The notes under the pieces: model-generated
The model's database searches: none
Seen by the model: the letters and a program-made list of their open reading frames with translations, nothing else
What the model was told of the DNA's origin: nothing
Origin: a virus
Reading direction: 5' to 3' (one strand)
DNA: 39,913 nucleotides
Virus record (IMG/VR): IMGVR_UViG_3300030110_003433
Location: 1-39,913 of that record
Position numbers and translations under genes: made by a program
Shown here: piece after piece, positions 18,646-39,913 of the stretch
Numbering within the stretch: position 1 is the stretch's first letter
Layout of the letters: each line of letters starts with the position of its first letter

Positions 18646-18647
18646 CT

Positions 18648-21600
18648 ATGGCGTATACATTAACTTTTAGAGAAGACGTTAAAGGATGGGTAAGTTTTAA
18701 GTCGTTTATACCAGAGTTCGGTGTAAGTATGGCTAATAATTATTATACTTTTTCAGGAGGTAAGCTATATCAACATCATCGTGAAGACGTAGATAGAAAT
18801 CTTTTTTATAACATACCATATGATTGTAGTTTTAAAGTTATTGTAAATAGTTTTCCAGATACCGTTAAAGCTTTTAATACTTTAAACTATGAGGGTACGC
18901 AGTCTAAAGTAAATAAATTTGTTGAGTACCAAGTGCCAAATGATAATACTTGGTATACTGATTTAGATTATTATAATTTAAGTGACAAACCTGGTTGGCA
19001 CGTTACAAATATACAAACTGACTTACAAAATGGTACTTTACCAGAGTTTAAAGGTAAAGAAAACAAATGGTTTAACTATATAAAAGGAATAAATGTAGAA
19101 ACAAATATTGATGGTGTTATAACTAATTTTTTAGATCCCGGTGAGTTTTCTTTTCAAGGACTAGGTTATGTTGATGGTATTAATATTTTTGTTGGAGTTT
19201 TTGGCTGTACAGATCCTAATTATATAGAATATTCTGCAGGGGCAACAATAGATGATGGTAGTTGTTCGGAAGAAATTATAGAAGGTTGTATGAATTCTGA
19301 TGCTACTAATTATAATGCAAGCGCAAACGTAGATGATGGTAGTTGTGTAATATTAGGTTGTAATGATCCAACAGCATTTAATTATAATACAGCTGCCACT
19401 GCTGATGATGGTTCTTGTATTCCAATTATTTACGGATGTTTAGATTCTAATGATGTTAATTATTATGCGGCGGCAAATACTCCATGTGATGGTAGTGCTC
19501 CTGGTTGTGATGGTACAGTTACTACTTGTGGTGGTCCTGGTACATATCCTGGCGAATGTTGTGAGGACACCGTGCTTGGCTGTACAGACCCTAACGCGCC
19601 TAACTATGATCCAAATGCAAATGTTGATGATGGTTCATGTGTTATTGGTGGTTGTACAGATGTTAATGCTGTAAATTACGATCCATTAGCTACTGCTGAT
19701 TGCGCTGGTATTGCTGGTGGTAGCGATGTTAGTTGTTGTTGTAATGTTTCTGGTTGTACAGATTCAACAGCAGTTAACTATGATGCAGCAGCGTGCCAAG
19801 ATGATGGGTCGTGTATAGCATGTGTATATGGATGTACGGATCCAATAGCTACAAATTATGATCCAAATGCAACTTGTGATGATGGAACATGTACTGGTAA
19901 TGTAAACTTAGCCTGTACTGATCCAACAGCGGATAATTATGATCCTAGTCCAAACGCGGTTTCTGATAATGATCTATGTAATTATTGTGCTAGCCCAATA
20001 CAATTTGATGAAAGTCTTGGTGGCCCAAACTCTAACACTTCAACTTTAGCGTTGCTTTACGGATTTTTTGCAGATCCTAATAAAGGATTATTAATTATAA
20101 ATAATACGTGGAATACATTATTACTGCCGTTTAATCAAAATCAAACTTCTCCTAACGATGCTGTTATAGATACATTTACTATATGGACTAGAGACTGTGG
20201 TAGTAGTAATCCAAATTTTGGTACAAATAATCTTGGTGGGTGCTATGCTTGGACAACTAGAACTCTTGGCGCTTGCCCACCTCAAGCCCCGGGTCACGTC
20301 TGTAGTGTACTATCTGGTTCAACTGAAGACTGGATAAATGTAGATGCTAGTGATTTTTCTACAAGTGGTTGGACGCTTCCCGATGGCGGCCAGTTTGAAG
20401 AAGATGGCGCAGGTAATATTTTTGAAAAAGGTTTAGATCATGCTTATGAAATAAAAGTAGTTGCTACTTGTGTAGGTGGTACAACATACGAAGCAACGCA
20501 TCAATTTGCTAGTTTAAGCGCTAATGTTTCTGGATGTACAGATCCTACCGCTTGTAATCATAATTCTAATGCTACAAACGACGATGGTTCCTGTGAATTC
20601 GCTAGTTGTTATGGCTGTACAGATCCAAGTTCACCTAGTTATGATTCTAATGCTACCACGGCTTGTGATGGTTCACTGCCATTCCCAGCTCCTCAATGTA
20701 CACATGATATAAACGGTAACATGCAATCTGGTCCGGATTGCTGTTGTTCTCCACCTATTGTAATGGGTTGTATGGATACTCAAGTTGGTTTAAACGCTGA
20801 TGTAAATGGTAATTCATCACTTGGTGTATCTTGTTTAGGAACTAATAACGGTGGGACATACCACCCTTCAATACACCCAGACTCAACATTTACTAACTGT
20901 ATAGATACAAGCACACCACCCGCCCCAATTGGTTATAAAGCTACAAACTACGATCCAACTGTTAGTGTAAGTGGTAGTGGTGGTAATTTAAGTACTGGTA
21001 TACAAGGTTTATCTAATAATGGTTGTACTTATATCGCTGGCTGTATGGACGATGGTAATCAACCTAGTAATGGTACATATAATTATACTCCTTATATTGG
21101 TGGTGGTCCTGAGTTTTTAGAAACAAATGGAGGTCATTATCCAACCGCTGGTGGATCTTTAACACCAGGTTTACCTGCGCTTAATTACAATCCGTTTGCT
21201 GGTATTGATGATGGTAGCTGTATACCTCAAATAATAGGATGTATGGACGAGTTTGACGGTAATAGTAATCCTAATAAAAACGTTGGTAGAAGAGATAATA
21301 ATAATTACACCTCACAAACAGCGCCTATTAACCCTGACTGGCCAATGGCAACTACATTAACAACAAATAGTATGGCAGCTGCTGGTAATATGTGGGCTGA
21401 TATTCCTGTTCCTGGTTATGAAAATAGAAGAGATAGTGGTAGTTTAATTTCATGGATAGATGTTAATGTTCATAGTCAAAGTACTTGTATTCTTGTAGAG
21501 TCTGGTTGTATGAACGATAGTAGTACTTCAAATGTTGATCTAGCTGCGGGACCAGTAAATGCAGACACAGGTTGGACTATTAAAAAAGGTGCTTGGGGTC

Positions 21601-22499
21601 ATATATCTGGTGGTGGTACAAATTATAGTGATTACACTGGTAACAACAGACCCCACTCTTTACCGGGTGTTCTCAATAATCAACAATTTAACGCTGCAAA
21701 TGCTGATACAGCAACCGCTAATAACGCTTTGCTACCTTGGGATGTTAAAGATAATGAAATATTTCAACAAGTGCTTCCAAATGGTCAGGCTGTAAATCAT
21801 GGTGGTAGTTCTTTTGGTGCTTACAACCATGAAGATTATTATGCTGAAGATTTTGATCACAATATAGCACAACCTTGGTCACCAGTAAATATGCAAGCTT
21901 GTTGTTTTGTTGCAGGTTGTTTACATCCTTACGCATATAATTTTGATTTAATAGGTTATAGATACAGTGGTGTTGCGGTTACTGGTAATGATCCAAATAA
22001 TGTGTTTAGTAATGGTACTTTTTACCAACCAGCGGTTCCTTCGGCTAGTGAACCTGTGTATGACCCTAATGAATCAATCCACGAATCTTGTGCTTTTTGT
22101 GATGGTACACCTGCTGCTGATTTTTTTAGAACAGATGATAGTGGAGAAGCAGATTATTATCTTCAAGATCCAGATACTTGGGACGGAATACAAGGCTTTA
22201 ATTCAGACGCTTTAGGTTCTCTTACTTTAACAACACAAATGTGGTGGGACTGGTCTGGTTATGCTGATTACGCGGCTAACGCTGGTAATCCTCAAGCTTT
22301 AGGAAATAATTCGGGTTTTCCTAAAAAATATGACTGTTGTTGTTTTGAGCCAGGTTGTCAAAATCCAAATGCAGATAATTATGATTCTACCGCACAGTGT
22401 GATGATGGATCATGTTGTTCAGATAGTCCGAGTGCTCAGGCAACATATGGTTTTCCAGCTTGTCAATCAAGTACCCTCGATACTGGCGGTGGCGCATAA
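18648..22499 (+). CDS. Cysteine-repeat tail adhesin candidate, 1283 aa
   Basis: The first 185 residues are a virion base domain (FREDVKGWVSFKSFIPEFGV, then MANNYYTFSGGKLYQHHRED and LNYEGTQSKVNKFVEY). From memory, that domain recurs behind the large tail protein in marine phages. From residue 186 on come about 17 modules of the type GCTDPxAxNYDPxAxxDDGSC. Eight or nine are packed at 186-445, one Trp-rich non-repeat domain lies at about 446-625, and degenerate copies with long Gly/Asn-rich inserts continue to the C-terminus. Each module has a Cys pair and an acidic DDGS loop, suggesting disulfides and calcium. In Bacteroidota the repeat belongs to exported cell-surface proteins. A receptor-binding or spacer role at the tail tip is inferred. 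No signal peptide is present. Confidence 0.65.
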   Translation: MAYTLTFREDVKGWVSFKSFIPEFGVSMANNYYTFSGGKLYQHHREDVDRNLFYNIPYDCSFKVIVNSFPDTVKAFNTLNYEGTQSKVNKFVEYQVPNDNTWYTDLDYYNLSDKPGWHVTNIQTDLQNGTLPEFKGKENKWFNYIKGINVETNIDGVITNFLDPGEFSFQGLGYVDGINIFVGVFGCTDPNYIEYSAGATIDDGSCSEEIIEGCMNSDATNYNASANVDDGSCVILGCNDPTAFNYNTAATADDGSCIPIIYGCLDSNDVNYYAAANTPCDGSAPGCDGTVTTCGGPGTYPGECCEDTVLGCTDPNAPNYDPNANVDDGSCVIGGCTDVNAVNYDPLATADCAGIAGGSDVSCCCNVSGCTDSTAVNYDAAACQDDGSCIACVYGCTDPIATNYDPNATCDDGTCTGNVNLACTDPTADNYDPSPNAVSDNDLCNYCASPIQFDESLGGPNSNTSTLALLYGFFADPNKGLLIINNTWNTLLLPFNQNQTSPNDAVIDTFTIWTRDCGSSNPNFGTNNLGGCYAWTTRTLGACPPQAPGHVCSVLSGSTEDWINVDASDFSTSGWTLPDGGQFEEDGAGNIFEKGLDHAYEIKVVATCVGGTTYEATHQFASLSANVSGCTDPTACNHNSNATNDDGSCEFASCYGCTDPSSPSYDSNATTACDGSLPFPAPQCTHDINGNMQSGPDCCCSPPIVMGCMDTQVGLNADVNGNSSLGVSCLGTNNGGTYHPSIHPDSTFTNCIDTSTPPAPIGYKATNYDPTVSVSGSGGNLSTGIQGLSNNGCTYIAGCMDDGNQPSNGTYNYTPYIGGGPEFLETNGGHYPTAGGSLTPGLPALNYNPFAGIDDGSCIPQIIGCMDEFDGNSNPNKNVGRRDNNNYTSQTAPINPDWPMATTLTTNSMAAAGNMWADIPVPGYENRRDSGSLISWIDVNVHSQSTCILVESGCMNDSSTSNVDLAAGPVNADTGWTIKKGAWGHISGGGTNYSDYTGNNRPHSLPGVLNNQQFNAANADTATANNALLPWDVKDNEIFQQVLPNGQAVNHGGSSFGAYNHEDYYAEDFDHNIAQPWSPVNMQACCFVAGCLHPYAYNFDLIGYRYSGVAVTGNDPNNVFSNGTFYQPAVPSASEPVYDPNESIHESCAFCDGTPAADFFRTDDSGEADYYLQDPDTWDGIQGFNSDALGSLTLTTQMWWDWSGYADYAANAGNPQALGNNSGFPKKYDCCCFEPGCQNPNADNYDSTAQCDDGSCCSDSPSAQATYGFPACQSSTLDTGGGA
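19201..22419 (+). repeat. Degenerate GCTD...DDGSC coding repeats
   Basis: About 17 in-frame modules of 60-70 bases in their compact form, recognisable by GGTTGTACAGATCC-like starts and GATGATGGTAGTTGT-like ends. Spacing is regular from 19201 to 19986 and irregular later because of insertions. Codons differ between copies, so this is an old protein repeat rather than a recent tandem duplication. The same 18-base string GTTTTTGGCTGTACAGAT occurs at the first module and again in the secreted protein at 39590. Confidence 0.85.
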
Positions 22500-26937: not shown

Positions 26938-29900
26938 ATGTCAGATTACACTTATAATGGAGAGGTATACTCTCAAGATGATATTAAGTCAAAAGCAGAT
27001 AGCTTAGGTCTTTCTGTAAATCAATACTTAAATAAATATAAAGAAATAAAGCCTGTTAGTACGGGAAAGACAATCGACTCTACACCTGTGGACCCAAATG
27101 TGGAGTCAAAAAATATGGGGTCCACTTCGGAAGATGGTTCTTTGGTGCAACCAGAAATTATTAAAATTAAAGATATTCCTTCTCGTCAAGATAATAGAAT
27201 TGCTAGTATAAACGAATACACAATATTACAAGGTAAAAACGAAGAAAATAAACTAGAATTATTTGAAATATTTAAACAAGAAAATAATACTAGTAATCCA
27301 GACGAAGCAATAGTTAATAAATATGATAAAACTATTTTTGCTGAAAAAGTTGGAAAAGGTACTTTGCCTATGCCAGAGCGTCCAGAAGGATTTTTGTTAA
27401 GTGATTATGATTTTAATAACACAAATACTTTAGAAGAACCTAGAAAAATTTATATAGATAAAAAAGCTAAAGACGAAAGATTAGTTTTTGAAAATAAATA
27501 TCCAGCTGTAAAACAAGATGACGGTAGTTTTAAATTTAATGATGCGCCTATAATATCACAAGGTGATAACTATATATCTTTAGAGGATATGGATATTGCT
27601 AAGCTAAGAAGAGATGGTAAAATAAAAGAGGCGAATAAATTAGCTAAAGAAAGAGGTTATGTCGAATTATTAAACGAAGATGGAGATTTAAAAGGTTGGA
27701 TACCACAAGAAGTAGAAGATCAAGCGCAACAAGAAGGAGGATCTAAAGATAAAGATGTGTTAGAAGAACAACGTAGACAAGCTTATTTTAAATTAATAGC
27801 AGCGGCTAAACTAGCGCATGAAAACAATCAACCAGAAACACACCCATATTTACAGACTCTTGGGGATGTTGGTCTTGGAAAATCTTTAGTTCATAAAATA
27901 AGAGATGCTTTTGGAGACGATTCAACTATTGATGACGTTATGTCTGCTTTAGAAATTTTAAATAGTACCGGTGAGTTACCACCTGGGTTACACAAATTAC
28001 CATCAAAAACAGCTACAGCTAGAACTTTTAATAACGCTTTAGATGAATTTGTGATAATGAATAGAGCTTTAGAAATTAACGCTGATTTATCTAAACTAAA
28101 AGAAGGTCAATTCTTTGTGGAAATTTTTGACAAATCTAATGATGAAATAGTGGAAACTATGAAAGGTATGTTAGAGGCTAACGGGTATGAAGCCTCTCCA
28201 GATGCTATAAAAAGAGCTGGAAGTGATTGGGGTGGAAAAGGTGGTTTAAGTATTTTAGGAACAGAATATGAATTAAGAGATGTTTTAGAGGGCGGTAGAG
28301 ATGTAGCTTCTCATTTAGCACCATTAGCAGCTTCTGTTTGGATTACTAAAAAATTACCCATGGGTATTGGTAAAAAGGCTAAAAATTTTGGTCAAATTTT
28401 AGACCAAAAAACAAATATAATTGGTAGATATTTAAAAGGCGCTGGTCCACAGTCTAGAGTATATAGAAATGTTGTTGATTTAACTTTAGGTGGTATTAAA
28501 GAAACTGTAGTGTTAGGTTTAGCTGATAAACCAGCTGAAGGAATATTTGGATCAGATCCATTTGTTTATAATGATAAAACAGGTGAATTTACACCTACAT
28601 TCCCATTTGCTTTAGGTTTTGGAAATGCTGCTGCGGCTAAAATACTTAATAGACTTAATACTACTAAAAACTTTTTTACACCAGCTTTAGCTACAATAAA
28701 TAGATCTAAAACAGCTCAAGCGGTTTTGGAGGCTAATATTGGGGCTACAGTAGGTACAGCTACAATGTTTTTTGCAGAAGAAGTAACTAAAGGTGTAGAT
28801 AACTGGAATAATTTAGGTTATGATTCTGAAGAAGACATGAAACAGGATCATGGGTTTAAAAATCTTGTAGATACGTATATTGGAATGTTAATGTTTCAAA
28901 GTGTATCACCAGCTATGGGGCAAAACGCTTTATCTAAACTAGCTAGAGGTATGCGTAATGATATAACAAGAGCAGCAACTGGCTTAACTCCTAGAGCTAG
29001 AAAAGCTATGAAGTTTTTTGGTATAGAAAAAAATAAAAAAGGAGAGTTTAATTTACAAGATGTAAACAATGCTAAAGGTCAAAAAATATTTGAAGTAAGT
29101 CAAGATAAAAGTTTAAATAAAGAGCAGAAAGAACAAAAAATTGAAGAAATAGAAAACAAAGCTGAAGAATTAATATTTCATAATGAGTTAAAACTAGCTA
29201 AACAATTAGCAAAAAGTGAAGGTAAATATAGAGAGTACTTAACTAATACATTTGATATAGCTAATAAATTAAAAACTAATAAAAAACCTACAGCTGACGA
29301 TATACAACGTTTTAGCAATTTAACTGATGTTGAGTTCTCTTGGTTGAAAAAGAAATTTGGTGTAACGGAAAACTCTGAGTTTAGTAGAATGCTAGATAAC
29401 AAACGTGAAGTTTATAAAGATATACTTAAACGTGTTGATGAAGCGTTCACAACTAAAGATAGACCTGGTGTAATACAGGGTAGAATGTTTAGTAGTATAT
29501 CTCCAGAGGCTAGAAACAAACAAATAGATTTATTGTTAGAGCAAGCTGAAATGGCTGGTGAAGTAACAATGTTAACTAAGGAAGCTGAAAATAAACCGCA
29601 TTTAAAAGAAATAAACGCGGAAAAAATCAAAAAAATAAAAGAAAAACAAAAACTTAACGCAGAAGAGGTTGTTAAAAACGAAGAACTTTACGATAAAATA
29701 TTAAAAGAAAGATTTGAAACTGAAGTTCAGTTTTCTAAATTAATGGCAAAAGAGCTTGGCGCTGGATTTAACTTGTTATCAGAGCAACAATACAATAAAA
29801 TTAAAGGTGTTACAAAAGGCGCTGAAGGTCATTACAATAGACAAACCAATCAAGTTTATATTAATAGAGAAGCAGCTTTAAAGGTTAGACAACTTGGAAC

Positions 29901-32900
29901 ACCTCTACATGAAATTACACACGCTATATTAAAAAATTCATTAAAGGAATCCTACATAGATGATCAAGGCGTAGAAAGAACTAGGGTCTCTGAAGCTGGT
30001 ATGATAAAGATAAACCAATTCTTAGATCAACTTACAACAAAAGAAAGATCTGCTGTTGAAAAAAGAATGGAACAAGAGTATAAATACTATAGAGATAAAA
30101 ATGGTAACTTTATATTAAATAAAGATGGTAAAAAAATAGAGCGACCTAAAAACGAATATGCTGAAGAATATTTAACAGCATTTGGAGATGTGCTTAAAAA
30201 TAAAGAAGTTGTAGAAACAGCTGATTTAGCTAGTAGAATAAGTAATTTCTTTACACCTATAATGAGACAAGCTGGGTTTAAAAATCTACAAGTAACCGCT
30301 GAAAGTGGTAAGGGTTTATATAATACAATTAAAGCTATTCAAAAAAGTAGTGAAACTGGTATTATAGATAGAGATGTTTTAAATATAGCTAAAACAAGTA
30401 AAGCGGTTACAGGTAAAGCTATAGCAGAATCTAGAACCATAACAGAGGGAATGAAAGAAGCTTCTACTGATATAGATAGAATATATAAAGAAAAAGGCTT
30501 AGAAGGTTACAACGAAATAATAGATAGAATAAAAGGTAAAAAAGCAGACGGTACTAAAGGTAAAGATTTTATAAAACAATACACAGAGATATATAGAGAT
30601 CATGCTGGTTACGAAAGTAAAAAAGATTTATTATATGATGCTATGGCTACTGATCCAACTTATGGTGTACTAGGTAGTATTATGTCATATAATCCAGCTA
30701 AAAACCCTTCTATGGCATCACATATACTCGGTAGACTTAAACAAGGTAAACATATAGATGTTGCTAATATAATTTTAGGTAAAGATGCACAGAGACAATT
30801 TACAAAATCTTTAGATGTAGTAGAAGTAAAAGAAGTTGAGGCTAAACAATTAACAGCTGAGGAGTTAACGGATATATCATTAGCTAAAGAAAAAATACAA
30901 CAAGCACCTAATCTTAGAAAATCTTTAGTAAAAGGTGAAGAAAAAGGTATTAACCAAGAGTTAATAGATAAAGTTGAAGCAACTGTAGTTAAAACATTTG
31001 GAACTAAAATACCTAAGCCAGAAGCAAAGGGATTTAGAAAATCTATAGAAAATAGTTATAAAACAGAACTTAAAAAACCTATAGCTGATTTAATGGGTAA
31101 AGGTCCTGAGTACGAAGTATTTTTAAGAGAGAACTTCGATGCTATAATGAAGCATGTCGATAAATCTTTCTTTGTGCAAATGGAAAGAATGACACCTAGG
31201 AAAGATAGAATATTTACAGAGGTTGAAATTGAAAGCATGTCTACTAAACAAACAGACAAAGCTATTGCTGAGGGTAGAGTACCTAAAAACACAAACCGAA
31301 ACGCTGGTAATACTCTTTGGAAATTTAAAAAACCTGCTCCAGCTCAATTTTTAAAGTTTTATGCTGGCACTGGTTTAGGATCAACAAAAGGTACTCGTAA
31401 AGATAGATTAGCTGAAGTTTTAGGTATAGAAATGGCTAAAGATTTTACATCGGAAATATTATCTAGACCAGAGGTTATAGCTAGAGTAAAAGAAATTTCA
31501 TTATTAGAACTAGAGGGCAAAATTGATGTGGTTGGTAAAACACCATCTCCAAAAGTAAGAGAAGCTAGAGAAATGCGTTTTGATAATTACGTTGAAAGAG
31601 TTGCGGCTGAAATAGGTAGAGATCCTAATTTATCTTTTAGTTTTACAGCAAAAGATTTTAAAAAGCAAGTTGAAGAACTAAAAACTGCTATCAACAAAAG
31701 TCAATCAATAGAAGATGTTATTGATTTAAAAAATCAAAAAGCTTTAAAAGGTGATTATCACCCAGACGCTGTAAAAGCAGCTATATATGGTTGGAATGAA
31801 GGTTGGGTTATAACAGCTGTTAGTAAAATAGGTGGAAATAAAGGTACAGCTTATGAAGTTGTGACAGGGACAAAAGGGGTTAAAGAATCTAAAAATATAG
31901 ACGGATTAGATTTAAAGTTAAATGTTACTGAAAAAAGAATAGAATTAGATCCAATTGGTAATTTTAAGGGCGGTAAATATCAAGCTCCTGATCTTATGCC
32001 TATTGTTCATAATAAACAAATGGGTTGGGAGCTTAAATTTGGTGATGCTGTTGCTGGTAAAAACAACGCTGGATTTATAAATTACACAAAAGGAACTTTT
32101 GAAAGAAAGCAAAAAAGAAAAAATCCAGAACAAGAAAAAGCTGTTGAACAAGCATTGCAAGAAGCTATAAATCAATCTAAAGCAGTTGAGGCTATACTTA
32201 GAGAAAAAGGTGTATTAAAACCAGGTGAAGACTTTACCTCTAAAACAAAAATACCATTAGAAATTCATAATATACTTAGTGGTAGGGGTGGTGCTAAAGC
32301 AAAAATGAAATCAGAATCTGTAAAGGTTAAAGAAGATTTTATTTCTGATTATTATAATGGTAAAGGCGTGTTTTATTTTCAAATGCACGGTAAAGGAGCT
32401 CATTTTTTAGGTAGCGATCCTTTTAATATTGCAAAAGAAATTGGAATGCCAAAGCTTGAAGGTGAATTTGTTTTAAAATCTAGAGTATTTGCTTCTAGTT
32501 ATAAAGTAAACGGTAAAACAGCTGGATATACATATAAAATAATAGCAGAACCAAAAATATCACCAAAATCGATAACTTCTAAAAGTAATTTTAATTTAGA
32601 TACGCCTGGTTCTTGGGGAAAAATAATGAAAACAGAATCAATGCAGGCTCTTGGTAAAATGGTTAGATCAGAAAACTCTGCGTTAAAAACAAATAAAAAA
32701 AGCACAAAAGATTTAGGTGTTATATCAGAATCTAAAACCAATAAAGAACTTGTAGAAAAAGTTAAAATTGTTGATAAGGCTTTAGAAAATGGTAGAAAAA
32801 CTAATAAAAAATCTAGAGGTGGTAGTTTTTGGGATTTTGATGATACATTAGCTACAACAAAATCTGGAGTTAGAGCTAGAATACCTAATACAGATGGTTT

Positions 32901-35900
32901 ACCAAAACCAAATAGAAAGGTTGTATTTTTAGCAGGTGGAGCTGGTAGTGGTAAATCAAACGTAATTAAAAAACTAGGTTTAGAAAAACAAGGGTTTAAA
33001 ATAGTAAATCAAGATATATCTTTAGAATGGTTAAAAAAGAACAACGGTTTACCAGAAAATATGAATGATCTTACTAAAGAACAAAAAAGTACTTTAGGTA
33101 AATTACAAGCTGAGGCTAGAACTATTGCTAAAAGAAAAATGATGAAGTTTAAAGGTAATGCTAATGGTGTAGTTGTTGATGGTACTGGTGGTTCTATAAA
33201 AGCTATGGAAAAACTAGTTAATGAATTTAAAGAAAAAGGTTATGATGTTAGCATGTTATTTGTTGAGACATCATTAGAAACTGCTTTAGCTAGAAATAGA
33301 GCAAGGAAAGAAAGATCATTGTTAGATAAAATAGTAGAAAGAAACCACGCTTCTGTTCAGGGTAATAAGCCAGGATTTAAAACAATGTTTGGTGAAAGAT
33401 TTATGGAAGTGAAAACTGATAAGTTAAAAATAGAAGATGCTATGCCTAGTGAACTAGTTAACAAAATGAATGATTTTGTTAGTAGTTATGAAAAAATTAG
33501 ATTAGACGCTGAGCAATTTGCTACACAAGGACAAAGTATATTAGATAGAGGTGGTAAATTTGATTTTTCAGAATTTAATGTTGTTACTGGTGGTCAAAGA
33601 GGACCTTTCTTTGAAAAAGCTATGGCTAGAGCGCAAAAATTTGGTACTAAAGATCAGTTTATTATAACCGCTAGACCACCTGAATCAGCAGGGCCAATAC
33701 GTGAGTTTTTAAAATCACAAGGTCTTGATATACCATTAGAAAATATTACTGGTTTAGGTAATAGTACTGCTGAGGCAAAAGCAATGTATATGCTTAAAAA
33801 GTTTTCAGAAGGATATAATGATATGTATTTTGCTGATGACGCAATACAAAACGTTAAAGCTGTTAAAGATGTTTTAAGTCAATTAGATATTAAATACAAA
33901 GTGCAACAAGCTTTAAGCAAAACAAATGTAAACAAGGAGGTTAATGATATAATGGAACACTCTTTGGGTATTAGTTCTGGTAAAAAATTTAGTAAAGCAG
34001 AGGCTAAAGTTAGAGGTAAAGATATTAAAGGTAGAAGATTCTTTTTATCAAATAGTGCTTCTGATTTAGAGCTTCTTATAGAACCCTTATATGGTAAAGG
34101 TGGTAAAGGTATAAAGAATAAAGAATGGTTTGATAAAGAGCTTATAGAGCCGTTTGAAAGAGGTATAGATAGTTACAACACAGCTAGACAAACTGCTAAA
34201 AACGATTATATGTCTCTTCGTAAGCAAAACAAAGATGTAGTTAAAATGTTGCCTAAAGAAGTAGAGGGCACTAGCTTTACGCATGACATGGCAATGAGGG
34301 TTTATCTTTGGAATAAAGCTGGTTACAAAATTCCAGACTTAACAAAAACAACAGAAGCTAAATTAGTTGAGTATGTAAAAAATAATCCAAAGTTACAAGT
34401 TTATGCAGAGCAATTTGCTAAAATAACAAAGCAAGAGAAAGGATTAAAAGAACCTAGCACTGAATGGTGGGCAGAAACTATGGCTGGTGAAGTTACAAAT
34501 ATAGATAGAGGTGTTAGTAGAAAACAATATCTTCAAGAATTTATAGATATTAAAAACGAAATATTTTCTGAAGTAAACCTAAACAAAATGGAATCTAAGT
34601 TAGGGACTAACTGGAGGGAAAATATTACAGACATGCTTGATCGTATGGAAACTGGTAGAACAAGATCTTTAAAGTTAGATAGAGGTAGTTCAATGATGAT
34701 GAATTATTTAAACGGTGGTGTTGGTACTATTATGAATTTTAATACTAGATCAGCTGCTCTACAAACTATATCTACTCTTAACTTCCTTAACATGAGAGAA
34801 AATAATCCAATTGCTGCGGCGAAAGCAATGGGTAACGTGCCACAGTTTTCAAAAGATTTTTTAAAAATTATGAATTCTGACATGTTGAAACAAAGAAGAG
34901 ATGGTTTATCGATAAATGTAACTGAAGCTGAAATAGCATCTGCAGCTGCTTCTTCTAAAAACCCTATACAATCAGTAATTTCTAAAGTGTTAAAAGTAGG
35001 TTATACACCTACTAAACTTGCGGATAGTTTTGCAATATCATTTGGTGGTGCAACTTATTACCGTAATAGAATTAAAATGTATGAAAAGCAAGGTTTATCC
35101 ATGAAAGAAGCTGAAGCAAAAGCTTGGACTGATTTCCAAAAGTTATCAGAGAGAACACAGCAATCATCTAGACCAGATTTATTATCTAAACAACAAACGT
35201 CACTAGCTGGTAGAATTATACTACCTTTCGCAAACACACCTATGCAGATGAATAGAAGAGGTATGAAAGATATACTTGATATATCTAAAGGAAGATATAA
35301 AAACACCGCCGAGTTAGGAGAAAAAATGGGTAGAATAACTTATTATATGGGTGCTCAAGTCGCTTTGTTTGCTGGATTACAATCTGCATTATTCGCGATG
35401 ATGTTGAACGATGAAGATGTTTCTGATGAGAAGATAATAAAAACAAAAGAATATGCTTTAAATACAGTTAGTGATTCGTTTTTAAGAGGTATGGGTATAT
35501 CTGGTGCTATTGCTTCTGGTTTTAAAAATGCAACTATTGCATATATGAAACAAAGTGAAAAAGGTTTTAGAGCTGATTATAGTGAAGTTGGTGAAGCTTT
35601 ATTAAATATATCACCACCAATTGGTTCTAAATTTGGTAGATTAGACGCTGCTGGAGAAAGAATAAAATGGGCTAAAATTAAAAAACAAAAACCTGAGTTT
35701 AAACTTGGTAATCCTTATTTAGAAGCAGGGTTATTAACAGTAGAATCTATTACTAACGCACCTGTTTATTCACCATATCAAAATACTATTAATATTCAAC
35801 ATGCTTTAAGTAATGATTATGAAAACTGGCAGAGAGCTCATATGATTGGTGGTTATACACCATATAATGTTGGTATTGAAACTAGAACAAAAGTAGCTAA

Positions 35901-36105
35901 AACAAAACTGGGACCTAAAGAAAAATTACTTAAACTTAAGAAAAACGAACAAGTTGATATGTTGTTAGAATTAGGTTTACCAAGATACAAAGTAAATAGA
36001 TTAAAATTAGAAAAAGATAGGATAGAAAAAATTATGGAACTACAAAATAAAAAGAAAAAGAAAACACGAAAATCTCTTTTTAATTACGACTTAAACATTC
36101 AATAA
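26938..36105 (+). CDS. Giant multi-enzyme virion protein (3055 aa)
   Basis: Likely ejected with the DNA. Visible parts in order: an N-terminal Tyr/Asp-rich segment (MSDYTYNGEVYSQDDIKSKA); helices to about 980; a zincin motif HEITH (991-995) with a candidate third ligand in EEYLTAF near 1077; a candidate PD-(D/E)XK nuclease (Glu1640 in GTAYE, PD at 1684-1685, ELK at 1698-1700); a HAD phosphatase (DFDDT 1966-1970, ITARP 2243-2247, FADDA 2298-2302) interrupted by a P-loop kinase (GGAGSGKS 2000-2007, Asp2026 in NQD, Arg-rich lid near 2120); then a C-terminal part with MMNYLNGGVGTIMNFNTRSA and a hydrophobic helix near 2797-2826. Such enzyme strings resemble the polyvalent proteins described for phages and plasmids. 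The frame is open throughout. Domain roles are inferred. Confidence 0.75.
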   Translation: MSDYTYNGEVYSQDDIKSKADSLGLSVNQYLNKYKEIKPVSTGKTIDSTPVDPNVESKNMGSTSEDGSLVQPEIIKIKDIPSRQDNRIASINEYTILQGKNEENKLELFEIFKQENNTSNPDEAIVNKYDKTIFAEKVGKGTLPMPERPEGFLLSDYDFNNTNTLEEPRKIYIDKKAKDERLVFENKYPAVKQDDGSFKFNDAPIISQGDNYISLEDMDIAKLRRDGKIKEANKLAKERGYVELLNEDGDLKGWIPQEVEDQAQQEGGSKDKDVLEEQRRQAYFKLIAAAKLAHENNQPETHPYLQTLGDVGLGKSLVHKIRDAFGDDSTIDDVMSALEILNSTGELPPGLHKLPSKTATARTFNNALDEFVIMNRALEINADLSKLKEGQFFVEIFDKSNDEIVETMKGMLEANGYEASPDAIKRAGSDWGGKGGLSILGTEYELRDVLEGGRDVASHLAPLAASVWITKKLPMGIGKKAKNFGQILDQKTNIIGRYLKGAGPQSRVYRNVVDLTLGGIKETVVLGLADKPAEGIFGSDPFVYNDKTGEFTPTFPFALGFGNAAAAKILNRLNTTKNFFTPALATINRSKTAQAVLEANIGATVGTATMFFAEEVTKGVDNWNNLGYDSEEDMKQDHGFKNLVDTYIGMLMFQSVSPAMGQNALSKLARGMRNDITRAATGLTPRARKAMKFFGIEKNKKGEFNLQDVNNAKGQKIFEVSQDKSLNKEQKEQKIEEIENKAEELIFHNELKLAKQLAKSEGKYREYLTNTFDIANKLKTNKKPTADDIQRFSNLTDVEFSWLKKKFGVTENSEFSRMLDNKREVYKDILKRVDEAFTTKDRPGVIQGRMFSSISPEARNKQIDLLLEQAEMAGEVTMLTKEAENKPHLKEINAEKIKKIKEKQKLNAEEVVKNEELYDKILKERFETEVQFSKLMAKELGAGFNLLSEQQYNKIKGVTKGAEGHYNRQTNQVYINREAALKVRQLGTPLHEITHAILKNSLKESYIDDQGVERTRVSEAGMIKINQFLDQLTTKERSAVEKRMEQEYKYYRDKNGNFILNKDGKKIERPKNEYAEEYLTAFGDVLKNKEVVETADLASRISNFFTPIMRQAGFKNLQVTAESGKGLYNTIKAIQKSSETGIIDRDVLNIAKTSKAVTGKAIAESRTITEGMKEASTDIDRIYKEKGLEGYNEIIDRIKGKKADGTKGKDFIKQYTEIYRDHAGYESKKDLLYDAMATDPTYGVLGSIMSYNPAKNPSMASHILGRLKQGKHIDVANIILGKDAQRQFTKSLDVVEVKEVEAKQLTAEELTDISLAKEKIQQAPNLRKSLVKGEEKGINQELIDKVEATVVKTFGTKIPKPEAKGFRKSIENSYKTELKKPIADLMGKGPEYEVFLRENFDAIMKHVDKSFFVQMERMTPRKDRIFTEVEIESMSTKQTDKAIAEGRVPKNTNRNAGNTLWKFKKPAPAQFLKFYAGTGLGSTKGTRKDRLAEVLGIEMAKDFTSEILSRPEVIARVKEISLLELEGKIDVVGKTPSPKVREAREMRFDNYVERVAAEIGRDPNLSFSFTAKDFKKQVEELKTAINKSQSIEDVIDLKNQKALKGDYHPDAVKAAIYGWNEGWVITAVSKIGGNKGTAYEVVTGTKGVKESKNIDGLDLKLNVTEKRIELDPIGNFKGGKYQAPDLMPIVHNKQMGWELKFGDAVAGKNNAGFINYTKGTFERKQKRKNPEQEKAVEQALQEAINQSKAVEAILREKGVLKPGEDFTSKTKIPLEIHNILSGRGGAKAKMKSESVKVKEDFISDYYNGKGVFYFQMHGKGAHFLGSDPFNIAKEIGMPKLEGEFVLKSRVFASSYKVNGKTAGYTYKIIAEPKISPKSITSKSNFNLDTPGSWGKIMKTESMQALGKMVRSENSALKTNKKSTKDLGVISESKTNKELVEKVKIVDKALENGRKTNKKSRGGSFWDFDDTLATTKSGVRARIPNTDGLPKPNRKVVFLAGGAGSGKSNVIKKLGLEKQGFKIVNQDISLEWLKKNNGLPENMNDLTKEQKSTLGKLQAEARTIAKRKMMKFKGNANGVVVDGTGGSIKAMEKLVNEFKEKGYDVSMLFVETSLETALARNRARKERSLLDKIVERNHASVQGNKPGFKTMFGERFMEVKTDKLKIEDAMPSELVNKMNDFVSSYEKIRLDAEQFATQGQSILDRGGKFDFSEFNVVTGGQRGPFFEKAMARAQKFGTKDQFIITARPPESAGPIREFLKSQGLDIPLENITGLGNSTAEAKAMYMLKKFSEGYNDMYFADDAIQNVKAVKDVLSQLDIKYKVQQALSKTNVNKEVNDIMEHSLGISSGKKFSKAEAKVRGKDIKGRRFFLSNSASDLELLIEPLYGKGGKGIKNKEWFDKELIEPFERGIDSYNTARQTAKNDYMSLRKQNKDVVKMLPKEVEGTSFTHDMAMRVYLWNKAGYKIPDLTKTTEAKLVEYVKNNPKLQVYAEQFAKITKQEKGLKEPSTEWWAETMAGEVTNIDRGVSRKQYLQEFIDIKNEIFSEVNLNKMESKLGTNWRENITDMLDRMETGRTRSLKLDRGSSMMMNYLNGGVGTIMNFNTRSAALQTISTLNFLNMRENNPIAAAKAMGNVPQFSKDFLKIMNSDMLKQRRDGLSINVTEAEIASAAASSKNPIQSVISKVLKVGYTPTKLADSFAISFGGATYYRNRIKMYEKQGLSMKEAEAKAWTDFQKLSERTQQSSRPDLLSKQQTSLAGRIILPFANTPMQMNRRGMKDILDISKGRYKNTAELGEKMGRITYYMGAQVALFAGLQSALFAMMLNDEDVSDEKIIKTKEYALNTVSDSFLRGMGISGAIASGFKNATIAYMKQSEKGFRADYSEVGEALLNISPPIGSKFGRLDAAGERIKWAKIKKQKPEFKLGNPYLEAGLLTVESITNAPVYSPYQNTINIQHALSNDYENWQRAHMIGGYTPYNVGIETRTKVAKTKLGPKEKLLKLKKNEQVDMLLELGLPRYKVNRLKLEKDRIEKIMELQNKKKKKTRKSLFNYDLNIQ
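29890..30185 (+). other. Zincin-like metallopeptidase domain within the giant protein
   Basis: LGTPLHEITHAIL gives the HExxH zinc motif at residues 991-995 on a predicted helix. About 80 residues later ENEYAEEYLTAFGDV-like sequence (actual text NEYAEEYLTAF at 1072-1082) offers a glutamate as third zinc ligand. Preceding GHYNRQTNQVYINREAALKV forms the edge strand and helix expected before it. The substrate could be host envelope protein or the giant protein itself. Confidence 0.6.
31801..32043 (+). other. Candidate PD-(D/E)XK nuclease core within the giant protein
   Basis: A helix with GTAYEVVTG (Glu1640) precedes beta strands, then APDLMP (Asp1685) and, 12 residues on, GWELKFGDA (Glu1698 and Lys1700). 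This order of E, D and ExK is that of the restriction-endonuclease fold. The spacing is acceptable, but the call is by eye only. Confidence 0.4.
32821..33860 (+). other. HAD phosphatase with nested P-loop kinase within the giant protein
   Basis: HAD motif I (FWDFDDTLA, Asp1966 and Asp1968) is followed within about 30 residues by a kinase core, VVFLAGGAGSGKSNVIKKLG. Its candidate base is Asp2026 in VNQDIS, with a zeta-toxin-like later part (VVVDGTGG, MLFVETSLETALARNRARKE). HAD sequence resumes at KFDFSEFN (2207-2214), motif II FIITARPP, a lysine at 2281 or 2287 and motif IV MYFADDAIQNV. The kinase therefore occupies the site of the HAD C1 cap. Confidence 0.7.
34690..35480 (+). other. Membrane-active C-terminal part of the giant protein
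   Basis: The segment from MMNYLNGGVGTIMNFNTRSA through RRGMKDILDISKG to MGRITYYMGAQVALFAGLQS and ALFAMML contains amphipathic helices and one clear hydrophobic helix. From memory, the LNGxxGxIMxFNTRSAxLQTxSTxNFxN block is a recurrent ending of large internal virion proteins in marine phages. It suggests a channel or inner-membrane contact during DNA delivery. Confidence 0.5.
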
Positions 36106-36124: not shown

Positions 36125-37222
36125 ATGGCAAGAAGACTTATAATACTACTAACAATGTTTTTAATAGCTTGTTCAGCTCCTAAAAAATGTTGTTCGCAAG
36201 AAATAAATATAGACGTTAAAAAACTTTTAAAGTTTTCTACGTTTTATGCTGCTGTAAATGGTGGTACATCATTATCTGATGTAGATGTATTTTCTGTAGA
36301 CAATGGTTTATCTACAAGCACTATATCAACTCCTTATGATTATAATTTTACTATTGGGCTTCGTAAAATAGCTAGGTTTGGTTACGAAAATAAAGCACAA
36401 ACATTTTATGATGGTACAGAGTCTAATTATAGTGACGCTGCTACAATAGGTAAAGTAAAAGGTATAGAGTACTTGTTTGAGGTAGATTACAAGAGACAGG
36501 AAGGTATAGATTATATGGATCAACATCATTTTATACGTTATAGCTCTGATGACGGTTGTCCTAGCGGTCTATGTGTAAATTATTTTGCTTTAAAATTAGA
36601 GTATTTACAAGATGGCTTTGCAGATGTAGAATATTTTGAAGCATCAGAAAGATATAGACATCGTAAAGGTAAAAATTTATCTTGGAATGTTGGGCTTGCT
36701 CATAGACTAGCGGAACCATATGGCTATAATCCATTAGACGAATGGATGTTATCTAATGGTAATTTACATTATACATATTTAGCGTTACAAGAGGGTTACA
36801 CTGTAGATGTGTATAGCAACGAATATTATAATCCAGCTGGAGAATTAGTTGCTACCAGTGCTGAGGTTTGGGAAGCTGTAGTTATACCACAAGTACTAGC
36901 AGATTACACTGAAAAGAAAAGAAACGAATTAAGTAGAATTATACAACACTCTATAGTTGTAGGATTTGATTATTATAAATACTCTAAAAAAACATGGTTA
37001 CACGCTTGGGGAAGTTTAATGCCTTGGCATTATAATGATGGAAGTGAATTCTCTTATCATAATTATATAGAAGATGATCAATGGTATGATTATTCTGGTG
37101 GCTTGATTTACGGTATAAAAGTAAACAAACAATTAGGGTATTTTGTAGAAGGAAAATATAACAAGTACTGGAATCGTGAATGGTATGATTTCAAAATAGG
37201 ATTAAACTATACAATTTTTTAA
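36125..37222 (+). CDS. Exported outer-membrane-type protein (lipoprotein and/or beta-barrel)
   Basis: The N-terminus MARRLIILLTMFLIACSAPK has a basic start, hydrophobic core and lipobox LIAC with Cys16. The rest is rich in alternating aromatic strands (SWNVGLAHRLAEPYGY, IVVGFDYYKYSKKTWLHAWG, SGGLIYGIKVNKQLGYFVEG). It ends KIGLNYTIF, with the C-terminal aromatic that marks barrel proteins folded by the Bam machinery. A 365-residue length could hold 10-14 strands. A phage gene for a host outer-membrane protein could mask the receptor, block superinfection or alter permeability. From memory, homologues occur in uncultured marine phages. Lipoprotein versus barrel is not settled; both may apply, and an exact signal cleavage after SQ (CCSQ) is a rival. 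It opens the small-gene block after the giant protein. Confidence 0.65.
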   Translation: MARRLIILLTMFLIACSAPKKCCSQEINIDVKKLLKFSTFYAAVNGGTSLSDVDVFSVDNGLSTSTISTPYDYNFTIGLRKIARFGYENKAQTFYDGTESNYSDAATIGKVKGIEYLFEVDYKRQEGIDYMDQHHFIRYSSDDGCPSGLCVNYFALKLEYLQDGFADVEYFEASERYRHRKGKNLSWNVGLAHRLAEPYGYNPLDEWMLSNGNLHYTYLALQEGYTVDVYSNEYYNPAGELVATSAEVWEAVVIPQVLADYTEKKRNELSRIIQHSIVVGFDYYKYSKKTWLHAWGSLMPWHYNDGSEFSYHNYIEDDQWYDYSGGLIYGIKVNKQLGYFVEGKYNKYWNREWYDFKIGLNYTIF

Positions 37223-37223
37223 A

Positions 37224-37505
37224 ATGGCAAAAGAATTAAATGAAGAAACAGCGTTTAAACTAAGTATAAAAACGCTAATAGGTATAGGTTTTGCAATGGC
37301 AACCTTAATTAGTATGTATTTTATGCTTCAAGCGGATATTGCTGAGGCAAAAGAATTACCTGTTATTCCACCAGATGAAGTAACACGAATGGAATTTAAT
37401 ATGAAGGATCAAATGATTCGTAATACTATTTTGGACACACAGAAGGACGTTCAAGAAATTAAAACATCTATTGAAAAAATAGAAGATAAATTATATAATA
37501 GATAA
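37224..37505 (+). CDS. Single-pass membrane protein with coiled coil (93 aa)
   Basis: A charged N-terminus (MAKELNEETAFKLSIK) precedes a hydrophobic helix at about residues 18-37 (TLIGIGFAMATLISMYFMLQ). A Pro-containing hinge (ELPVIPPDEV) follows, then a heptad-like helix (DTQKDVQEIKTSIEKIEDKL). The layout, N-inside anchor plus periplasmic coiled coil, is that of inner-membrane spanins or of tethering proteins. It starts one base after the preceding stop, so it is probably coupled to the outer-membrane gene. No endolysin is seen nearby, so a lysis role is a guess; holin is less likely with one helix and a long tail. Confidence 0.65.
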   Translation: MAKELNEETAFKLSIKTLIGIGFAMATLISMYFMLQADIAEAKELPVIPPDEVTRMEFNMKDQMIRNTILDTQKDVQEIKTSIEKIEDKLYNR

Positions 37506-37510
37506 ATTAA

Positions 37511-37873
37511 ATGGAACAATCTGAAACTACGCTAAGCCAATGGATAATATATTCGTTAGTAATTATTTTTGTATTAATAGCTAGCACGGCTTTTAGCCAA
37601 ATAGAAGTTAGGCAATTTAACGCTGAATGGAATAACGTTAATAGCGTTTCATGGTTTATGGATTTAGAAGATTGTCAAACTAAAGGTTATACTGATATAG
37701 CTAAAAATCCAGATGATGCAAAACTACATAAAATAGCTGTTGTACCTACTATTATAATATTTAAAGATGGGGAAGAAGTTGCTAGATTTCAAGCTGATTT
37801 ATCGTTTAAAATGGTAGCAACAAGAGAAGAAGTACAAGAAGAAATAGATAATCAATTAATGAGCGATTTTTAA
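37511..37873 (+). CDS. Exported thioredoxin-fold protein lacking both active-site cysteines
   Basis: Residues 11-30 form a signal or anchor (IIYSLVIIFVLIASTAFSQ). The AFSQ end resembles flavobacterial signal-peptidase sites. The mature part matches thioredoxin: strand IEVRQFNAEW (31-40), then, where WCGPC is expected, W-N-N-V-N (40-44), so both cysteines are Asn. It continues with the helix through DLEDCQTKGYTDIAKNPDDA, the cis-proline strand VVPTIIIFKDGEEVARF (Pro79) and a closing amphipathic helix (TREEVQEEIDNQLM). It cannot act as a CxxC redox enzyme. A binding or chaperone role, as T7 uses host thioredoxin for processivity, is possible, but export argues for the envelope. It lies between the coiled-coil membrane protein and a basic protein. 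Confidence 0.75.
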   Translation: MEQSETTLSQWIIYSLVIIFVLIASTAFSQIEVRQFNAEWNNVNSVSWFMDLEDCQTKGYTDIAKNPDDAKLHKIAVVPTIIIFKDGEEVARFQADLSFKMVATREEVQEEIDNQLMSDF

Positions 37874-38159: not shown

Positions 38160-38681
38160 ATGTTTGAAGATTTTAATATATCAAAGTTTAAAAAAAACAA
38201 ACCACCAAGTGATAATTCTATTACAACTAAAAACGAAATAAAAGAATTAAAAAAAATACCTATTAGAGAAAAGTTTGTTAAAGAAATGGATGATGGAGAA
38301 AAAAACTTTACTAAAATAGTAGGTAAAGATCCTTTAGTAGGCAAATTAATATCAAAATCTACACCTATAGTAATGAAGTTAAAAAAATATTTTAACAGAC
38401 CAAGACCAGTTATATTAGCAAAAAAAATAGGTATAGAACTTAAAGATATAAAGTTAAAATCAATGGACTCACCAGCATACCCGTCTGGTCACGCCACACA
38501 AGCAACTTTATTATCTTTAGCTTTGTCTGATAAGTATCCAGAAAAAGAAGATAAATTAAAAAAACTAGCTAGGGATATAATCCATAGCAGATCTGTTGCT
38601 CACACGCATTTTAAATCAGATAATATTGCTGGTGAACAACTAGGAAAACAATTGTATAACTTAATAAAAAACAAAATATAA
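38160..38681 (+). CDS. PAP2-superfamily phosphatase
   Basis: All three catalytic signatures of the PAP2/acid-phosphatase/haloperoxidase family are intact and in order. They are K-x6-R-P at Lys75-Arg82-Pro83 (KKYFNRPRP), PSGH at 108-111 (AYPSGHATQ, His111 as general acid), and S-R-x5-H-x3-D at Ser143-Arg144-His150-Asp154 (SRSVAHTHFKSDNIAG). Vanadate/phosphate-binding residues are therefore complete. At 173 residues with no signal peptide or membrane helices, it is a soluble minimal form, unlike class A acid phosphatases or membrane PAP2 enzymes. Substrates could be phosphatidic acid, polyprenyl pyrophosphate or nucleotides. The first 60 residues are highly charged. Its stop overlaps the next ATG. 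Confidence 0.9.
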   Translation: MFEDFNISKFKKNKPPSDNSITTKNEIKELKKIPIREKFVKEMDDGEKNFTKIVGKDPLVGKLISKSTPIVMKLKKYFNRPRPVILAKKIGIELKDIKLKSMDSPAYPSGHATQATLLSLALSDKYPEKEDKLKKLARDIIHSRSVAHTHFKSDNIAGEQLGKQLYNLIKNKI

Positions 38682-38879: not shown

Positions 38880-39047
38880 ATGGAACCAGGAAATAACACA
38901 TCAGCATTTAAAATGAAACTAACACCTTTCAAGAAAAAAAAGAAAGGTTTTAAAGATAATTACCAAGGACCTTGTTGGGATAGATATAAACAAGTGGGTT
39001 TTAAATATAAAGACGGTAAACGAGTTCCTAACTGTGTTCCAAAATAA
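38880..39047 (+). CDS. Small protein with CW...NCVP box (55 aa)
   Basis: This short frame translates to a Lys-rich start (MEPGNNTSAFKMKLTPFKKK) and a conserved-looking end with PCWDRYKQVGFKYKDGKRVP then NCVPK. From memory, the CWxxYKxxGxKxKxGKxVPNCVP box is a recurrent short motif in phage structural and small proteins, often as a lone C-terminal tag. The two cysteines, about 20 residues apart, may pair or bind zinc. It fills the gap exactly, starting one base after the preceding stop and ending one base before the next ATG, which supports it as real. Confidence 0.75.
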   Translation: MEPGNNTSAFKMKLTPFKKKKKGFKDNYQGPCWDRYKQVGFKYKDGKRVPNCVPK

Positions 39048-39048
39048 A

Positions 39049-39913
39049 ATGAAAAAATTACTATTACTATTATTATTACCAATATTTAGCTTTGGACAAA
39101 TTAATCAATTTCCATGGGTTCATGATTTTGAAAATATTGTAGGCTTAGAACAAGAACCAAATGATGATGGTGATTGGTGGTTAATGCAAGGACCAACAAG
39201 TTCTTTTAATACTGGCCCACAAGGAGATCACACTGTGGGTAATGGTATTTATTATTATGTAGAATCATCTTCACCTAATTTTCCTAATAAAGTATTTGTA
39301 ACATATACACCTACATTTGATATATCACAAACACCTGGTAAAGTTTTATCATTTTGGTATCACATGTATGGGGCTGCTATGGGTGATCTTGAAGTGGGTT
39401 ATATAGATAATAATGGATATACAATATTAGATGTTATATCTGGCAACCAAGGTGATTTATGGAAATTTGCTTATTATCCTATACCTGCTGTAGATTCTTT
39501 TAAAGTTGCTTTTGTAGCAACTACCGGCTCTAGTTATACTAGTGATATAGCTATAGATGATATAATGATTAGTGATCCATTTAATGTTGTTTTTGGCTGT
39601 ACAGATACTGTTTCATCTAATTATGATTCAACAGCTACACATGATGATGGTGGTTGTATTTATTATTTTGGTTGTACTGACGTTAACGCTACAAATTATA
39701 ATCCTTGGGCTAACGTAGATGATAATAGTTGTATACAAAATGTTAATTGTGATTCTACACAATCTTTAATTGATGTAGCTATAAAATTAGATAATTGGCC
39801 TGGTGAAACATATTGGGATATAACAGCTAACGGAACTGTAATATATTCTGTACCATCTGGAACTTACAATTACACTCAAACAGGACAAACAATACATACA
39901 CAAGTTTGTATAC
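39049..39913 (+). CDS. Secreted MAM-domain protein with GCTD repeats (partial, runs off the end)
   Basis: The N-terminus MKKLLLLLLLPIFSFGQ is a clear signal peptide with a Bacteroidota-style FGQ end. Residues about 20-180 form a MAM domain: FPWVHDFENI, DDGDWWLMQGPTSSFNTGPQ, GDHTVGNGIYYYVE, LSFWYHMYGAAMGDLEVGYI, and SDIAIDDIMISD, the usual signature of this adhesion domain. Two GCTD...DDGGC/DDNSC modules follow (183-229), the same repeat as in the tail adhesin, then a domain starting NCDSTQSLIDVAIKLDNWPG that is cut by the window end. MAM plus these repeats is a host-like cell-surface build. On a phage it may be exported from the infected cell or mimic host surface protein. Only the start and 288 residues are visible. 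Confidence 0.85.
   Translation, partial: MKKLLLLLLLPIFSFGQINQFPWVHDFENIVGLEQEPNDDGDWWLMQGPTSSFNTGPQGDHTVGNGIYYYVESSSPNFPNKVFVTYTPTFDISQTPGKVLSFWYHMYGAAMGDLEVGYIDNNGYTILDVISGNQGDLWKFAYYPIPAVDSFKVAFVATTGSSYTSDIAIDDIMISDPFNVVFGCTDTVSSNYDSTATHDDGGCIYYFGCTDVNATNYNPWANVDDNSCIQNVNCDSTQSLIDVAIKLDNWPGETYWDITANGTVIYSVPSGTYNYTQTGQTIHTQVCI
39592..39735 (+). repeat. Two GCTD...DDxxC modules in the secreted protein
   Basis: In-frame modules GCTDTVSSNYDSTATHDDGG-C and GCTDVNATNYNPWANVDDNS-C match those in the 1283-residue tail protein. The first is preceded by the same 18 bases as the first module there. Confidence 0.8.

Follow-up and report, generated by a model that had tools for sequence, protein, structure and literature searches.

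Phages alter the surfaces of their hosts by small lipoproteins or by sugar modification. Llp of phage T5, a small lipoprotein exclusion protein, is a phage product that acts at the host outer membrane (PMC9586334); the protein considered here is likened to it as a functional analogy only, being a large protein of the type IX secretion system (T9SS) type, for which an exclusion role is only proposed. Phage-encoded T9SS cargo with the type A sorting domain has been described in Cryophage and termed there a unique occurrence (Bellas et al. 2020, PMC7468147). The Cryophage cargo consists of an endoglucanase, a GH39 protein, and a PA14 protein, which vary among strains of one phage, and its authors likewise proposed superinfection exclusion or inter-strain competition (PMC7468147). 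In the gut crAss-like phages of cluster 2, ORFs with T9SS cargo sorting domains lie by BACON genes, near the head gene section (2019, PMC6949934); they involve BACON domains rather than MAM and GCTD modules, and were not analyzed further in that study. Secreted MAM proteins are also found in Bacteroidota, with up to 48% identity in the MAM domain, and the single complete example read through (L098) has a type A-like tail at its end.

The gene family analyzed here resembles Cryophage in that some of its virus-encoded proteins have a T9SS type A sorting domain at the C-terminus. It differs in that a single MAM/GCTD protein, conserved across a lineage of marine podophages, carries either of two swapping tails. 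Compared with the Bacteroidota MAM proteins, the phage copies have a fixed architecture and group separately, in a clade set off by a long stem. A literature search that left most subscription journals and preprints outside its reach found no account of phage cargo of the MAM type or of the second, short tail; both the presence of such cargo in marine podophages and the interchangeable second tail appear to be new.

The phage lineage and the locus

The window, that is, the whole stretch of DNA analyzed, is the 39,913-bp IMG/VR virus record IMGVR_UViG_3300030110_003433. A terminase (PHROG profile match to phrog_6681, E = 7e-170) and a portal (phrog_6547) are encoded on it alongside several virion proteins. 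The terminase shares 63.5% identity with that of an uncultured podophage from Manatee Spring and 45% with those of Flavobacterium elemoviruses, and the nearest cultured phages by terminase have Flavobacterium, Cellulophaga, Tenacibaculum, and Maribacter as hosts. Terminase relatives are encoded by more than 600 stretches of the viral collection, and the phage group is therefore large. The features that matter to the argument are as follows.

18648–22499, + strand: tail-region protein of 1283 aa with GCTD repeats; weak match to the crassvirus muzzle C-terminal profile (E = 3.7e-4, below the cut-off)
36125–37222, + strand: protein with signal peptide and outer-membrane beta-barrel; at 34 of 43 related loci
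37224–37505, + strand: 93-aa protein with a single transmembrane/coiled-coil segment; at 38 of 43 related loci
37511–37873, + strand: thioredoxin-like protein with an N-terminal leader and no CxxC; at 38 of 43 loci (Pfam Thioredoxin, E = 0.003, below the cut-off)
38880–39047, + strand: small phage gene of 55 aa, with TAA at 39045–39047 (phrog_9737, E = 5e-8)
39049–39913, + strand: MAM/GCTD secreted-protein gene, with ATG at 39049 and 288 codons visible; 3′ end past the contig
39049–39099, + strand: Sec signal peptide, MKKLLLLLLLPIFSFGQ, as read from the sequence
39133–39573, + strand: MAM domain, residues 29–175 (PF00629, E = 3.5e-21, 76.1 bits against a cut-off of 26.4)
39595–39657, + strand: GCTD repeat 1, residues 183–203
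39670–39732, + strand: GCTD repeat 2, residues 208–228
39745–39912, + strand: start of a beta domain (LDNWPGETYW...), truncated by the contig end (alignment with and translations of relatives)

The MAM/GCTD gene starts one base after the end of the 55-aa gene and its frame is open through the window end. The original prediction of a signal peptide, a MAM domain, and two GCTD repeats in a gene directly behind a small phage gene is borne out. In the PDB, the sequence matches of the window MAM are animal MAM proteins, namely MDGA1 (8.6e-18) and enteropeptidase (~1e-17). Animal MAM domains typically contain four conserved cysteines, which the PF00629 profile does not demand; because residues 29–175 of the window translation contain none, the domain is filed as bacterial-type rather than animal-type. 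In relatives, the LDNWPGETYW-type beta domain is followed by more repeats and then by a sorting tail. The tail of the window copy is cut off by the contig end, as it is in the nearest neighbor L001, and the last part of the window, taken as a 29-mer, has no exact match in viral contigs.

The barrel, 93-aa, and thioredoxin-like genes constitute a conserved module directly upstream of the MAM gene. The counts refer to 43 loci, which include a few overlapping fetches of one contig, and that for the barrel is a lower bound because some loci are cut before it; in some relatives, the barrel gene lies 3′ of the MAM gene instead (for example, L124). A model of the barrel (pLDDT 66) predicts ~12–13 long strands typical of outer-membrane proteins, and its closest folds, at this modest confidence, are Tsx (Z = 14.8) and KdgM (Z = 14.3). 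The barrel has no Pfam match; no relatives were found in cultured phages or solved structures, and none was detected in 18 bacterial genomes, mostly of the presumed host type, in a search run without a positive control. Its identification as a PorV/PorP shuttle, a 14-stranded FadL-family barrel with a PorP/SprF profile, finds no clear support: there is no Pfam hit, and the ~12–13 strands and the Tsx/KdgM folds come from a model of limited confidence. The thioredoxin-like protein without CxxC is encoded close to a cysteine-rich secreted protein. Downstream of the MAM gene, relatives encode an M15 endolysin (PF08291, phrog_894) and a tail-fibre-like protein, which places the MAM gene in the late region. 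A PAP2-superfamily phosphatase (38160–38681; PF01569, E = 3e-9) also lies in the late region and occurs at 10 of 43 related loci. Further upstream, a giant 3055-aa protein (26938–36105) closes the structural block directly before the conserved module, and at 13297–22499 the window has ORFs of 1782 and 1283 aa that in many relatives appear as a single fused frame of ~1300–3450 aa, the C-terminal part of which is hypervariable.

Two scans of IMG/VR contigs recovered ~45 viral contigs with a MAM/GCTD gene, largely the same set as that obtained when the MAM core was searched for as a DNA pattern. The arrangement of features is far above chance and is conserved in these related contigs. A phage terminase was detected on 22 of the 24 contigs checked, and not on the other two, a 20-kb contig and a 49-kb record. 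Complete copies range from 818 to 1374 aa and share one order. The signal peptide and MAM domain come first, followed by two GCTD repeats and a beta domain (LDNWPxETSW); after more repeats, a second beta domain (DDGGDSWG...) precedes a long GCTD array, and a cysteine-rich module (VDDYCCENEWD) leads into the tail. By regular expression count, intact copies have 8–23 GCTD repeats and 36–75 cysteines, so that the two repeats in the window are only the start of an array. Signal peptides, called by inspection for the window and by pattern for relatives, are present in 34 of 34 complete relatives. In the MAM proteins of L131, L145, and L116, the ordinary leader is replaced by a lipobox-like one (..ISCSAQKKCCAQ / ..VSCAAPKKCCSQ); these leaders resemble that of the neighboring barrel gene, a likeness that suggests leader exchange inside the phage. 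The full-length protein has no homologs in cultured phages; the only matches there were to the GCTD repeats, and came from cyanophages and from a single marine virus record. Among these are Synechococcus phage proteins with GCTD repeats (MW147367, KU686198), some annotated as virion structural.

In phylogeny, the phage MAM domains, that of the window included, group into one clade of 36 rows (support 100), which a long stem separates from 78 further sequences, nearly all cellular, and the GC and GC3 of the gene match those of the phage. These data bear on the concern, raised with the original prediction, that this end of the contig might be a host-derived assembly join. Every module of the protein is typical of Bacteroidota secreted proteins, as would be expected if a piece of host DNA had become attached to a phage contig by artefact or by recent transduction. 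Against such an origin stand the ~45 contigs, with terminase on nearly all of those checked, the conserved upstream module, the single phage clade on its long stem, and the phage-like GC and GC3. An assembly join with host DNA is ruled out by the terminase contigs, synteny, phage clade, and base composition, because in relatives the gene lies within the contig between conserved phage genes, and a host fragment of either kind is extremely improbable.

Two exchangeable C-terminal tails

A T9SS type A-like C-terminal domain is found in 12 complete copies. In four type A-tailed proteins of the five scanned, it scored 35–42 bits with TIGR04183 (cut-off 23) and 38–48 bits with PF18962 (cut-off 27). 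TIGR04183 exceeds its curated cut-off in 11 of 29 phage records, each time only at the MAM/GCTD gene. With a type A tail as query, a sequence match (E = 1.8e-6) was obtained to 8glk_D, the substrate domain of NucA in the solved complex with the Flavobacterium johnsoniae T9SS. The full-length cargo model has a pLDDT of 42 and is usable only in part, namely in portions of the MAM, second beta, and C-terminal domains; within these limits, residues 993–1058 of the L002 model superimpose on 8glk_D with Z = 8.9 and an rmsd of 1.7 Å over 66 residues, and the MAM of the same model matches meprin MAM (Z = 11.5, rmsd 3.4). The L002 tail is accordingly predicted to adopt the Ig-like beta-sandwich of the T9SS sorting domain.

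The 19 other complete copies in the tree carry a conserved tail of ~40 residues, ...TDLLGR...N..LFYIYDDGTVEKKIII, at the exact C-terminus, which is recognized neither by TIGR04183 or PF18962 nor by any other Pfam/NCBIfam model tried. The same short tail occurs in bacteria, again at the exact C-terminus and mostly in proteins with a signal peptide, some of which, in small Flavobacteriales, have a leader that nearly matches that of the phage protein. Only 2 of 148 genomes from across the phylum contain the short tail. Within one Flavobacteriales group, whose genomes are mostly of 1–2 Mb, it is present in 69 of 196, with up to 37 copies per genome. Fifteen short-tail genomes were tested for T9SS components: SprA was found in 14, each of the 15 has at least 31 TIGR04183 (type A) matches, and G366, which gave no SprA match, may be an incomplete assembly. 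On a tree of the remaining protein, from which the apparently frameshifted L133 (repeat region) was excluded, as it was from the tail counts, well supported branches show at least six changes of tail type, and parsimony gives eight.

Homology between the short tail and the type A domain is unsupported (hhalign probability 7%), and for lack of detectable homology the role of the short tail rests on the swapping and on its host distribution. These point to the two tails being interchangeable sorting signals, and the short tail is slightly more likely than not to be a separate class of T9SS sorting signal used by small Flavobacteriales on tens of proteins. On this reading, with its tails swapped at least six times, the phage gene would amount to a natural domain-exchange experiment in secretion signals.

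The MAM/GCTD gene is accessory, being absent from a 68.7-kb relative and from the complete MW202828 genome. Its absence from some relatives would suit a passenger without a role in infection, either cargo for host fitness or a genetic hitch-hiker. The gene is, however, under purifying selection: the computed pairwise dN/dS is ~0.1–0.15 in most pairs compared and 0.07 in the closest, across many lineages with large synonymous divergence. Moreover, the copies belong to one old clade in which repeated tail replacement has always retained a tail, and a mere passenger is thus quite unlikely.

Proposed export and function of the encoded protein

It had been suggested that the protein is secreted and that a T9SS C-terminal domain might lie beyond the window end. 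Relatives that reach past this point carry either the sorting domain or the second, interchangeable tail, and secretion is strongly supported by the signal peptide together with the C-terminal sorting tail in relatives; that the window copy has such a tail as well we infer from them. The MAM/GCTD protein is thus probably a virus-encoded cargo of the host T9SS, displayed at or released from the cell surface. With host export labels at both ends of the protein, the infected cell most likely displays it before bursting.

In the proposed mechanism, the cargo would be made late in infection together with structural and lysis genes, and would be moved across the inner membrane by Sec via its signal peptide. 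The host SprA–PorV would then recognize the C-terminal tail, which would be removed, and the cargo would be anchored or released, as is known for type A cargo (PMC12618676). At the cell surface, the protein may present a long, cysteine-rich GCTD rod with a MAM head, and the surface of the doomed cell would be remodeled such that competing or sister virions are kept from adsorbing. The leading function put forward, tentatively and as yet unproved, is superinfection exclusion or receptor masking.

Cell or particle adhesion is a close second, and is possible at a slightly lower level of confidence. The protein would take the same T9SS route and act as an adhesin that glues cells together or to particles, with the benefit of a higher local host density or of infected cells held on a surface. 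The combination of MAM with long repeat arrays is an adhesion architecture; long GCTD proteins are also present in bacteria of the presumed host type, and the T9SS exports adhesins such as SprB (PMC12618676, PMC9143113); the late position by lysis and fibre genes, however, would leave little time for a benefit from adhesion.

The original suggestion that the protein coats or clusters cells would be compatible with this picture. The original prediction also held that the protein may saturate receptors shared with the tail adhesin. This has been weakened: GCTD repeats are present in the tail protein of the window, but in the tail proteins of only 4 of 20 relatives, one of them with a single repeat, so that sharing of the repeat with the tail is not a general rule, and shared receptors are possible for the phage of the window but not general. 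The same distribution bears on whether the product is instead a virion-associated fibre or decoration protein that, as part of the particle, would bind receptors through its MAM and GCTD modules, an outcome under which the original prediction would have been refuted. Consistent with such a role, GCTD repeats occur in the window tail protein and in cyanophage proteins that carry a virion structural annotation, and the gene lies within the late region. Nevertheless, the tail proteins of 16 of the 20 relatives have no GCTD, all complete copies have a signal peptide, and many have a T9SS sorting domain; the signal peptide and sorting tail make the protein unlike a virion fibre, and this assignment is unlikely.

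If the preferred reading, a T9SS cargo of viral origin, is true, a dedicated host export machine displaying a viral adhesin of ~1000 residues would be another, Bacteroidota-specific route by which phages alter host surfaces. With terminase relatives on more than 600 stretches of one collection, the route would concern common phages. In addition, the exchange of two unrelated-looking tails raises a testable question, namely whether the T9SS reads a class of signal that current annotation misses.
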